The notes beneath the pieces were generated by a model that saw only the letters and a program-made list of their open reading frames with translations, was not told where the DNA came from and made no database searches. The position numbers and the translations under genes are program-made. DNA of 64,000 bases from Thalassospira xiamenensis M-5 = DSM 17429 (GTDB lineage Bacteria; Pseudomonadota; Alphaproteobacteria; Rhodospirillales; Thalassospiraceae), in the NCBI RefSeq assembly GCF_000300235.2, contig NZ_CP004388.1:1097501-1161500 (forward strand), written 5' to 3'. Numbering within the stretch: position 1 is the first letter of the stretch; every line of letters begins with the position of its first letter. Of the stretch, positions 18,699 through 21,435 are shown piece after piece.

Positions 18699-19622
18699 AT
18701 GCGTTCTCTTATTCTTTCTGCTGCGGCAGCAGTGGCGATTGTCTTTGGCGGTGCGGCAGCACAGGCCGAGCGCCTGACAGAAAAGCCGCTGGTTGATGCC
18801 GCGTGGCTTTCGGACAATCTTGATAACCCGTCTTTGGTGGTTGTCGATATCCGGTCGCTGACCAAAGAAGGCAGCCCCTATGATGCCGGGCATATTCCGG
18901 GGGCGGTGTTTGCGCCCTATGGCAAGTTCGGCTGGCGCGCCAAGGTTGGCGATGTTGTCGGCCAGTTGCCGCCGGTTGATGTGATATCGGCCCGGATCGG
19001 CAGCCTTGGCATTGATAATGACAAACAGGTTGTTGTTGTGCCGGCCGGTCAGAACAGTTCGGATTTCGGTTCGGCGACCCGTGTTTACTGGACCTTTAAG
19101 GTGCTGGGCCATGATGCGGTTACCATCCTTGATGGCGGGCAGCGTGCCTGGGAAGCAGCCGGCAAGCCGGTTTCAACCGACGCGGTCGCCCCGCAGACCT
19201 TGGCATTCAATGCCAATTTCCGCCCGGAGCTTCTGGCGACGGCCGATGATGTTGCCAAGGCGCGTGAAAATGGTGTCGCGCTGGTTGATGCGCGTCCGTC
19301 GGCACAGTTCCGCGGCGAGCAGACCAGCCCCGTCGTGGCGCGTGCCGGTGCGATCCCCGGTGCGGTCAATATCGAACAGTCGGCGTTTTATGATGATCAG
19401 AAAGGCCAGTTTGTTGCATCCGATGTGATCAGCGGCCTGGTTGAAAATGCCGGTGTGTCGAAAGACGGTGATGAAATCACCTATTGCAATACCGGCCATT
19501 GGGCATCGGTTGCGTGGTTTGGCCTTTCGGAAGTGATGGGCAACAAAAACACCCGGATGTATGACGGCTCCATGACCGAATGGGCGGCTGATCCGTCGCG
19601 CGACGTGGTCGTTCCGGAATAA
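18699..19622 (+). CDS. Periplasmic thiosulfate sulfurtransferase (tandem rhodanese)
   Basis: Exported protein of 307 residues; the signal peptide ends after AAAQA (residue 23). Two rhodanese domains follow. The first, with VVDIRSLTKEGSPYDAGHIP, lacks a catalytic cysteine; the second has VDARPSAQFRGE and the active loop CNTGHWAS, with Cys as sulfane-sulfur carrier. The enzyme moves sulfur from thiosulfate or a persulfide to an acceptor such as cyanide or a thiol. Its place ahead of a YeeE/YedE transporter and a Cys-repeat protein suggests periplasmic handling of sulfane sulfur. A hairpin lies between it and the next gene. Confidence 0.88.
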   Translation: MRSLILSAAAAVAIVFGGAAAQAERLTEKPLVDAAWLSDNLDNPSLVVVDIRSLTKEGSPYDAGHIPGAVFAPYGKFGWRAKVGDVVGQLPPVDVISARIGSLGIDNDKQVVVVPAGQNSSDFGSATRVYWTFKVLGHDAVTILDGGQRAWEAAGKPVSTDAVAPQTLAFNANFRPELLATADDVAKARENGVALVDARPSAQFRGEQTSPVVARAGAIPGAVNIEQSAFYDDQKGQFVASDVISGLVENAGVSKDGDEITYCNTGHWASVAWFGLSEVMGNKNTRMYDGSMTEWAADPSRDVVVPE

Positions 19623-19728: not shown

Positions 19729-20937
19729 ATGTCTGAAACGACCCTTAATGTCCGTGCTTCGGGCTTTAGTTTTGACAAAGGGCCCGCAGCCGTCACGGCG
19801 ATCCTGTTTGTGATTGTCGCGGTGCTGATTGCGCAGGCAGTCGATATCCATCAGGCCGCGCTTTATGGCCTTGGCGGGTTGCTGGGCATTGCCCTTTATC
19901 ATGCGTCATTCGGTTTTACCGGTGGCTGGCGGCGGTTTTCGGTCGAAAAGCGCGGCCGCGCGATGCGGGCCCAGCTTTTGATGATCGGCATTGCCGCGGC
20001 GGCGTTTATTCCCTTGCTTGCCATCGGCGCACCACTTGGTACCCCGATTGTCGGCGCGGTGGCACCGGTTGGCGTTTCGGTTCTGGTCGGCGCGTTCATG
20101 TTCGGCCTTGGCATGCAGCTTGGCGGCGGATGCGGATCGGGGACGCTGTTTACGGTTGGCGGCGGCAGTGCGCGCATGTTGCTGACCCTTGTGTTCTTTA
20201 TCGTGGGTGCTGTGATCGGCACCGCGCATTTGCCGATGTGGCTTGAACTGCCTTCCATGCCGCCCATGAGCCTCGGAACCGAATTTGGCATTTGGGGCGG
20301 GTTGGGCGTGACCTTTGCTGGTCTGGCTTTGGTGGCGTTGATCACGATCTGGGTTGAAAAACGCGCCCACGGTTCGATTGAAACCGCACCGGTGGCATCG
20401 CGTGCGGGCTTTGCCCGGTTGCTGCATGGTCCGTGGCCATTGGTCGGGACGGGTATCCTTCTGGCCGGGCTTAATGTTGCAACGCTTCTGAGTGCGGGGC
20501 ATCCGTGGTCGATCACGTTCGGGTTCGGGCTTTGGGGGGCGAAGATCGCCCAAGGTATCGGCATTCCGGTTGAAACCTGGGAATTCTGGAACTGGGCCGG
20601 TCCGGCCAAGGCGCTTTCAAATTCGGTGCTGGCGGATAATACGTCGGTGATGAATTTCGGCATCGTGATCGGGGCGGCATTGGCGGCAAGCCTTGCGGGC
20701 AAATTCGCGCCCAAAGTGAAGGTGCCGTTTGCGTCGCTTCTGGCGGCGGCAGTTGGCGGGATTTTGATGGGCTATGGGGCGCGGCTGGCGTTTGGCTGCA
20801 ATATCGGGGCGTTGTTTAGCGGCATTGCCTCGGGCAGCGTGCATGGCTGGCTCTGGTTTGTGATGGCCTTTGCCGGTAGCTGGATCGGTATTGCGCTGCG
20901 CCCGGTATTTGGCATGGACGGATTTAAAAAGTCATGA
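19729..20937 (+). CDS. YeeE/YedE-family sulfur transporter (TsuA-like)
   Basis: Inner-membrane protein of 402 residues with about ten or more membrane segments. Both family halves carry the conserved cysteine motif: GGGCGSGTLFTVGGG near residue 133 and AFGCNIGALFSGIASG near 350. In TsuA these cysteines pass thiosulfate through the membrane. With a rhodanese before it and a Cys-rich anchored protein after it (ATGA overlap), import of thiosulfate or another sulfane-sulfur species is the likely role. Export or sulfur trafficking other than thiosulfate cannot be excluded. Confidence 0.85.
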   Translation: MSETTLNVRASGFSFDKGPAAVTAILFVIVAVLIAQAVDIHQAALYGLGGLLGIALYHASFGFTGGWRRFSVEKRGRAMRAQLLMIGIAAAAFIPLLAIGAPLGTPIVGAVAPVGVSVLVGAFMFGLGMQLGGGCGSGTLFTVGGGSARMLLTLVFFIVGAVIGTAHLPMWLELPSMPPMSLGTEFGIWGGLGVTFAGLALVALITIWVEKRAHGSIETAPVASRAGFARLLHGPWPLVGTGILLAGLNVATLLSAGHPWSITFGFGLWGAKIAQGIGIPVETWEFWNWAGPAKALSNSVLADNTSVMNFGIVIGAALAASLAGKFAPKVKVPFASLLAAAVGGILMGYGARLAFGCNIGALFSGIASGSVHGWLWFVMAFAGSWIGIALRPVFGMDGFKKS

Positions 20938-21377
20938 GCGAGAAAAATACAATCCTGTTTGGTGCGGTGTTCCTCGCGGCCAGCGGTGCGGTGGTGTTTG
21001 ATCATTATCATCACACCAGCACGCCCGCCAATCCACCGGCAATATCCAACCCGGCCAACAGTCCGGCGGTCGGGTGTAATCCGTGTGCGGGTAATCCGTG
21101 CGGATCGAACCCTTGTGCGGCGAACCCTTGTGCCGCCAATCCTTGTGCGGGCTATAACCCATGTGCTGCGAATCCATGTGCCGCGAGTCCCTGTGCGGGT
21201 TATAATCCTTGTGCCGCAAATCCATGTGCCGCAGCGCCGTGCGGTGCCAACCCGTGTGCCGCATATAACCCGTGCGGCGCGGGAAACCCCAGTGCGGCGT
21301 TTAACCCGTGCGCAGCAGAAAATCCGTGTGCGGCATATAATCCTTGGGGGGCAGGGAGCCCTTGTTCTGCCAATTAG
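20934..21377 (+). CDS. Membrane-anchored Cys-rich Asn-Pro-Cys repeat protein
   Basis: Protein of 147 residues in the sulfur operon, overlapping the transporter gene by four bases. One N-terminal membrane segment (ILFGAVFLAASGAVVF) is followed by a His cluster (DHYHHT), a Pro/Asn linker and then about 100 residues of repeats with the core NPCAA or NPCAGY, holding 17 cysteines (first at residue 48). Two units have lost the Cys (GNPSAAF, YNPWGAG). No enzyme domain is seen. The charge pattern suggests that the repeats face the periplasm. The many regularly spaced thiols could carry sulfane sulfur handed over by the rhodanese or bind a soft metal such as copper; both are inferences. The family is unnamed to me. 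Confidence 0.8.
   Translation: MSEKNTILFGAVFLAASGAVVFDHYHHTSTPANPPAISNPANSPAVGCNPCAGNPCGSNPCAANPCAANPCAGYNPCAANPCAASPCAGYNPCAANPCAAAPCGANPCAAYNPCGAGNPSAAFNPCAAENPCAAYNPWGAGSPCSAN
21075..21369 (+). repeat. Coding repeat region of the Asn-Pro-Cys protein
   Basis: About 18 imperfect units, mostly 12-18 bases, each centred on an Asn-Pro-Cys block written as AAYCCRTGYG. Third positions vary between units, which shows selection on the protein rather than a recent DNA expansion. Confidence 0.8.
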
Positions 21378-21397: not shown

Positions 21398-21435
21398 AAA
21401 ACAAGCCCGCGCTGCTTAAGTGACGGGCTTGTTTG
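21398..21435 (+). terminator. Terminator of the sulfur operon
   Basis: AAACAAGCCCG (21399-21409) pairs with CGGGCTTGTTT (21424-21434), 11 bases, 21 bases after the stop codon. The A- and T-rich arms let it work on both strands. Confidence 0.85.

Follow-up and report, generated by a model that had tools for sequence, protein, structure and literature searches.

The gene at positions 20934..21377 (+) of the window, the 64,000-nucleotide stretch of Thalassospira xiamenensis DNA analysed here, encodes a protein of 147 aa with 17 Cys that has homologues in the genus. This probably exported cysteine-tail protein comes third in a conserved operon for sulfur handling, after a rhodanese and a transporter of the YeeE/YedE family; in other orders the gene for DUF6969 comes next. 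The operon is marked by its gene order, a 4-base overlap, a near-invariant N-terminal segment of the third protein, its Pro-Cys tail and a tie to one YeeE subfamily. As read from the sequences, the protein may act as a periplasmic acceptor of sulfane sulfur, an arm placed between rhodanese and YeeE, a role that is regarded as a serious possibility, slightly short of probable.

Gene organization in the window

The first of the three genes (18699..19622, +) encodes a tandem rhodanese of 307 aa with the loop YCNTGHWAS (PF00581, E 1.6e-27). It is probably periplasmic, as a preliminary description of the locus had stated, the signal-peptide-like start being judged by eye. The second gene (19729..20937, +) encodes a YeeE/YedE-family sulfur transporter of 402 aa (PF04143, E 8.9e-74) with Cys135 and Cys357, placed by alignment to 6leo. 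The ATG of the cysteine-tail ORF shares four bases with the TGA of this gene, an ATGA stop/start overlap (20934..20937, +) that is found in 29/29 genus genomes. The earlier observation of a cysteine-rich ORF that overlaps yeeE behind a rhodanese is confirmed as a whole. Two other explanations of the ORF were discarded. A chance ORF or frame artefact is excluded by homologues with the identical overlap in the 29 genomes, and a cysteine-sensing leader peptide is rejected by inference from the position of the gene, which sits after the transporter with no further gene downstream in the operon. An inverted repeat with perfect 11-base arms, 14 bases apart (21399..21434, +), begins 22 bases beyond the stop of the cysteine-tail gene and is a possible transcript end; it has no T run and is absent from the terminator scan listing. 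Pfam assigned the seven other window genes tested to rhodanese, Sulf_transp, TetR, M20 peptidase, NAD kinase and DEAD helicase, with one unmatched.

The 17 Cys, correctly described as regularly spaced, occupy positions 48-144 of the 147 aa; the spacings range from 3 to 12, 13 of the 16 are 5 or 6, and there is no CC or CxC pair. From the first to the last Cys codon (21075..21365, +) the tail is rich in Pro-Cys and, on the pLDDT of the model, probably disordered. In the 16 PC[AGS] units Pro is written with four codons (7/5/3/1) and Cys with 12 TGT and 4 TGC, and the 13 Asn of the repeat units are written with 7 AAT and 6 AAC. The third-base variation from which selection on the protein had been read is therefore as described, in the form of a simple codon count rather than a formal selection test.

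Conservation within the genus

Among 60 related genomes searched, 35 had a match; the N-terminus was matched in all 29 genus members and the repeats only in six others. The order of genes around DUF6969 is similar in L159 and L174, in keeping with Thalassospira as the genus. The rhodanese is also present in 29/29 genus genomes and shares a contig with the cysteine-tail gene in 28; the locus of one genome (G008) is divided over two contigs. The genus proteins are 125-233 aa long and contain 14-31 Cys, and their N-terminus hardly varies. A near-constant head combined with varying length and Cys number indicates that the repeats grow and shrink behind a fixed head.

The operon outside the genus

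Named species genomes were searched with DUF6969 as the anchor, and the best 80 of at least 569 confirmed matches were analysed, a selection and not a census. These loci split into 49 of an 'a' type and 31 of a 'b' type. YeeE lies upstream in 44 of the 49 'a' loci in this best 80 of at least 569, and a cysteine-tail ORF stands in between in 44/44, 39 of them recognized by one motif and five by a looser motif (LFA for LFG) adopted after the first failed. The other five are L112 and L133, whose DNA starts no more than about 140 bases from the gene, and L117, L134 and L141, which are without YeeE on the locus. Within the same best 80 of at least 569, the 4-base overlap with yeeE recurs in 38/44 loci of other groups, a rhodanese is present on 43/49 'a' loci (same strand on 35), and DsbD-type and thioredoxin genes occur on 13/49, one pair of which was checked in Pfam. 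The flanks of ten loci were looked over by eye only. Hosts among the best 80 of at least 569 include Devosia, Mesorhizobium, Aminobacter, Chelativorans, Pelagibacterium and Ochrobactrum and, beyond the class, Thauera and Pseudothauera.

Several loci deviate from the common order. L134 (Thauera) has a three-domain rhodanese, a protein with one tail Cys, and DUF6969, in a locus without YeeE. L141 (Defluviimonas) has the tail protein beside DUF6969 and neither YeeE nor rhodanese on the locus, and L117 (Devosia) has DUF6969, rhodanese, thioredoxin and DsbD and neither YeeE nor the tail protein. In L109 and L127 YeeE is present and the rhodanese is missing on the locus. DUF6969 as a recurring fourth gene, like the occurrence of NPC repeats in other architectures (see below), goes beyond the preliminary description.

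A [KR]N..L head followed by Asp, a place 3' of YeeE or 5' of DUF6969 and a Pro-Cys tail are found together in the 29 genus genomes, the window included, and in 46 operon proteins from the best 80 of at least 569 DUF6969 loci, one of which is without the Asp. The absence of a named family, noted earlier, holds for the window protein and its homologues in Pfam, NCBIfam and PHROGs. The sole Pfam row for the window protein is a weak Extensin_1 (E 0.019, below the cut-off), and the protein has no match in NCBIfam, PHROGs or the PDB sequences. Neither a SoxY nor a TusA-type domain in Pfam matches the window protein or five homologues. No paper on the family or its operon was found among the openly licensed papers of PubMed Central.

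Head and tail of the protein

The conserved N-terminal segment (20934..21014, +) is a membrane anchor or a signal peptide, with Asp-His after the hydrophobic part. The consensus of the head in 75 proteins is [KR]-N-(mostly T)-x-L-[FY]-[GA], in which [KR], N and one Leu are present in 75/75; Asp follows the hydrophobic part in 74/75, and then His in 63. The protein had been called membrane-anchored. This is likely, but the hydrophobic segment often ends in a signal-peptidase-like A-x-A, so that cleavage is possible; a strict A-x-A ends it in 27/29 genus proteins and in 35/46 others (best 80 of at least 569 DUF6969 loci), and the window's own protein has AVV in its place. An anchor that would touch YeeE is favoured, as such conservation of the head would be unusual for a plain signal peptide. 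Charge counts predict the N-terminus inside and the tail outside in 26/29 genus proteins, with 3 ties; for the 46 others (best 80 of at least 569) they give tail-out in 17, ties in 22 and the opposite in 7. AlphaFold gave no usable model of the window protein (pLDDT 43), with a short helix of low confidence at residues 5-18, disorder elsewhere and pLDDT <50 for residues 42-147.

Across the family, as seen in the genus and in the best 80 of at least 569 loci, the tail holds 1 to 31 Cys, nearly all of them after Pro: 652/660 in the genus and 258/263 in the operon proteins of those best 80 loci. In the 46 operon proteins (best 80 of at least 569) the tail Cys number 1-17; 29/46 have four or fewer and two, L134 and L139, have a lone tail Cys, three residues before the C-terminus. 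Each of the 29 genus proteins has its final Cys 3 or 5 residues from the C-terminus. Among the operon proteins of the best 80 of at least 569 loci this Cys lies within 11 residues of the end in 27/46 and 35-89 residues from the end in 19/46, mostly preceding a Pro-rich tail. The window protein ends in SPCSAN, others for example in PCAAY or PCSAGAL; GGCGG is not present.

These numbers bear on two readings of the preliminary description, a sulfur store and the binding of metal; both are weakened by the tails with few Cys. If the tail bound metal, it would soak up Cu(I), Zn, Cd or Hg in the periplasm in the manner of a metallothionein, aided by the His behind the helix; this is considered unlikely. 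The many thiols of the genus proteins (14-31 Cys) would suit such a role, as would the DHxxH kept in 28/29 of them, which bears out the His cluster described after the membrane segment as far as the genus is concerned. Elsewhere the cluster is not general: the second His is present in 13/46 operon proteins, and 10/46 have no His within six residues after the Asp (best 80 of at least 569). The proteins with four or fewer tail Cys, or with one, lie beside the same kinds of genes in these best 80 of at least 569 loci, and the one- and two-Cys forms in the same operon speak against a basic role in storing metal. The window protein also lacks CC and CxC pairs, and it has no match to a metallothionein family in Pfam or NCBIfam. 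One locus that points towards metal is L081 (G153:C26:14000-31000), where NPC proteins, YeeE and DUF6969 occur with a pyridine-nucleotide disulfide oxidoreductase and an RND pump.

The YeeE subfamily

YeeE Cys135 and Cys357 are the equivalents of TsuA Cys91 and Cys293 and are both present in 66/66 aligned homologues. No Cys of the window YeeE aligns with TsuA Cys22, and against the NCBIfam TsuA models the protein scores below the cut-off (66.5 bits where 400 are required and 47 where 645 are). In a quick tree it groups with sequences of Aminobacter, Mesorhizobium and another member of the Rhizobiales. On this 66-row tree, which contains the window and six genus members, lacks eight of the 49 'a' loci, has rows chosen in mixed ways and has long branches among the rows without a tail gene, the label 'has tail partner' requires 2 changes as compared to a mean of 15.4 when shuffled. 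This shows that the cysteine-tail gene is tied to one YeeE subfamily.

Residue 158 of YeeE is Cys in 14/17 rows without a tail gene and in 0/49 with one. The difference may reflect one ancestral change and no more.

Class-wide searches

Because the DUF6969 anchor is selective, the class sample was also searched with the head alone. Profile A4 comprises the N-terminal 27 residues and was built from the window protein, two genus members, L097 and L109; it was run against 385 class genomes at E <= 0.01. Nine matches were obtained, seven of them directly behind YeeE. The five strong ones (G000, G007, G274, G372 and G438), all behind YeeE, are profile members or close kin and were thus to be expected; L097 is a contig of G274 and L109 a contig of G372, and the class, anchor and head-profile searches overlap. 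Among the four weaker matches, G305 and G074 are new and lie directly behind YeeE, while G137 and G123 look unrelated. The independent support from this search is therefore two new relatives of two, both behind YeeE. G438 and G274, of another family, carry true relatives that share the head and directly follow yeeE, and 11 genomes of their order yielded no further strong relative. In G372 the head is present with only three Cys behind it. The preliminary description had asked whether homologues lie mostly away from sulfur genes; seven of nine A4 matches, two of them new, lie behind YeeE. Against this, among the 46 homologues near DUF6969 (best 80 of at least 569), L134 has a rhodanese and no YeeE, and L141 has neither on the locus. 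The earlier interpretation overall is partly supported.

Profile A1, which comprises 20 of the 29 genus proteins, matched in 33/385 class genomes. DUF6969 has an NPC match no further than 5 kb away in 21 of these genomes (0.15 expected by random placement); for Sulf_transp the number is 9 (0.18 expected) and for FGE/SUMF1-type genes 8 (0.21 expected). The count omits G030, G037, G044, G048 and G053 as well as weak or fragment Sulf_transp and FGE rows, and it retains G257, which is probably a low-complexity artefact; the NPC match of G046 is in frame.

DUF6969 and NPC repeats in other proteins

Class-wide, NPC repeats occur in small secreted proteins and in long N-terminal arms on cytochrome P460-like domains. 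Two of these domains match Pfam PF16694 just under the cut-off (E 4e-5 and 1e-4), and the others were named by eye. Arms of this kind were seen in L035, L036, L037, L039, L045-L048, L050-L053, L055, L056, L059, L061, L063, L065 and L068, and several of these loci also carry an adjoining small secreted NPC protein. The genome of the window encodes a second, secreted NPC-repeat protein at L031:8515-8847 (G000:C1 about 3362514-3362846). It adjoins an exported protein of FGE/SUMF1 type and DUF6969, a trio that was seen again, by eye, in L033, L034 and L040. Among openly licensed PubMed Central papers, none was found on DUF6969 or on P460 combined with cysteine repeats and FGE.

In alignments of eight and six rows DUF6969 shows two invariant HxH motifs, a fifth His and no invariant Cys. 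It is present in 31/33 class genomes with NPC matches as compared to 59/352 without (Fisher p 1e-19, uncorrected for relatedness). One alternative to a plain thiol protein is, in this respect, a modified peptide: a DUF6969 enzyme would alter the Cys of Pro-Cys-Ala/Gly/Ser before export, and the modified residue would act for sulfur or metal. This is improbable, although the genome-wide co-occurrence, the proximity within 5 kb in 21/33 genomes, the conserved His and the Pro that precedes 82/85 Cys even in operon proteins with four or fewer Cys (best 80 of at least 569 DUF6969 loci) would all fit it. The AlphaFold model of DUF6969 has a pLDDT of 87, but the domain matches no enzyme by sequence or clear fold: no PDB sequence was matched, and structure searches (Foldseek best E 1.2, VIA-align best Z 3.2) gave no clear PDB neighbour, though its fold may be a known one. 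No recognition sequence was seen either. Furthermore, DUF6969 is present in 29/29 genus genomes and there never lies within the cysteine-tail operon, and an ORF of three or more NPC is found on just 8/31 'b' loci, within the locus DNA examined (best 80 of at least 569). Such a modification is compatible with the sulfur acceptor arm.

The broader proposal is that DUF6969, as a putative cytoplasmic His-rich metalloenzyme, modifies Cys in Pro-Cys-Ala/Gly/Ser motifs of exported proteins and constitutes a new post-translational system; it is judged quite unlikely. If true, the enzyme would act on the YeeE-coupled tail protein, on small NPC proteins that are secreted and on the NPC arms that precede cytochrome P460-like domains, and the modification would supply sulfur- or metal-active groups to the periplasm. 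The cysteine-tail protein also connects DUF6969, an uncharacterised domain, with a recognisable Cys motif in many Alphaproteobacteria.

Proposed function

In the proposed acceptor arm, the N-terminal helix would keep the tail protein beside YeeE with its tail in the periplasm. The rhodanese would make a persulfide and hand sulfane sulfur to the tail thiols, and the tail, as a swinging arm, would offer the sulfur to the two invariant Cys of YeeE. With its extra repeats the genus might gain further sites for accepting sulfur, or a modest reserve of it in bound form. The operon context (rhodanese, YeeE and, in part, DsbD and thioredoxin) points to thiol and sulfane-sulfur chemistry. The relay is favoured by the conserved overlap, the co-occurrence of rhodanese, the two new relatives behind YeeE, the fit of the YeeE tree, the DsbD-type and thioredoxin genes nearby, the closeness of the last Cys to the C-terminus in the genus and in 27/46 others (best 80 of at least 569), which recalls SoxY, and the retention in YeeE of both Cys that are called indispensable in TsuA. 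Proteins with one or two Cys occupy this operon slot as well, which suggests that one or two thiols suffice for the basic task, as in a carrier, and that the repeats of the genus are an elaboration on it; the single Cys three residues from the end in L134 and L139 is as expected of a carrier thiol.

Several observations count against the relay. A tail of up to 31 Cys exceeds its need, and the charge counts are clear for tail-out in the genus only. On their loci L134 and L141 have no YeeE, L117 has neither YeeE nor the tail protein, and L109 and L127 have no rhodanese. Also, the last Cys is far from the end in 19/46 operon proteins (best 80 of at least 569), and NPC repeats are found in secreted and P460-like proteins.

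A redox buffer or disulfide scaffold, in which the tail thiols cross-link mutually or bind neighbour proteins, is very unlikely. The model for it is CdeC of Clostridioides difficile, for which such a role is proposed; CdeC is described as having a 6-NPC repeat and a self-assembly that is partly disulfide-dependent (PMC7677010), and by title the CdeC work alone was relevant to NPC repeats among openly licensed PubMed Central papers. The DsbD and thioredoxin genes on 13/49 'a' loci (best 80 of at least 569) would agree with a scaffold, whereas the single-Cys form of L139 is unable to build a network, and a scaffold leaves unexplained why the gene is tied to one YeeE subfamily.

The import of sulfur into the cytoplasm has been called poorly understood (PMC11582611). 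As a sulfane-sulfur acceptor, the cysteine-tail protein would bear on the route from periplasmic enzymes to YeeE-type transporters, and its natural versions with one to 31 Cys behind one YeeE subfamily provide a set of variants on which a periplasmic carrier could be tested.

Comparison with known systems

Bufferins are copper peptides modified by MNIO enzymes. They are described as peptides rich in Cys that have an enzyme gene dedicated to them (PMC12452194), and the cysteine-tail protein resembles them as a Cys-rich protein with a recurring gene partner. The partner, however, is DUF6969 and not MNIO; the window protein matches no bufferin family in Pfam or NCBIfam, and an MNIO gene is not among the seven window genes tested. 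CdeC is an exosporium (spore-surface) protein, and its likeness to the tail protein is limited to the motif.

SoxT and TsuA are reported to have 330-350 aa and three conserved Cys, and the two TsuA cysteines whose equivalents are kept in the window YeeE were called indispensable (PMC11582611). Like SoxT1 and SoxT2, the window transporter is a full-length member of the YeeE family beside sulfur genes, in Alphaproteobacteria too; it differs in having 402 aa and two invariant Cys, a comparison made by description, with SoxT outside the tree. YeeD (TsuB) is described as soluble, cytoplasmic and TusA-like (PMC11582611, PMC11073785). It shares with the tail protein a gene beside yeeE and a thiol proposed here to exchange sulfur with YeeE. 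The tail protein, by contrast, probably leaves the cytoplasm and lacks an ordered structure, and the YeeE that goes with it shows no Cys where TsuA has Cys22.

The SoxYZ system, in which the carrier arm of SoxY has a C-terminal GGCGG, offers a further parallel. SoxV and SoxW reduce SoxYZ, and genes of the DsbD/thioredoxin type lie near some cysteine-tail loci. Both belong to sulfur systems, and in many members the thiol of the tail protein is placed near the C-terminus on a flexible stretch; SoxY is described with a C-terminal cysteine (PMC6067878). The tail protein differs from SoxY in the absence of the SoxY Pfam match and of GGCGG, and in its hydrophobic N-terminus, its disordered tail and its content of 1-31 Cys.
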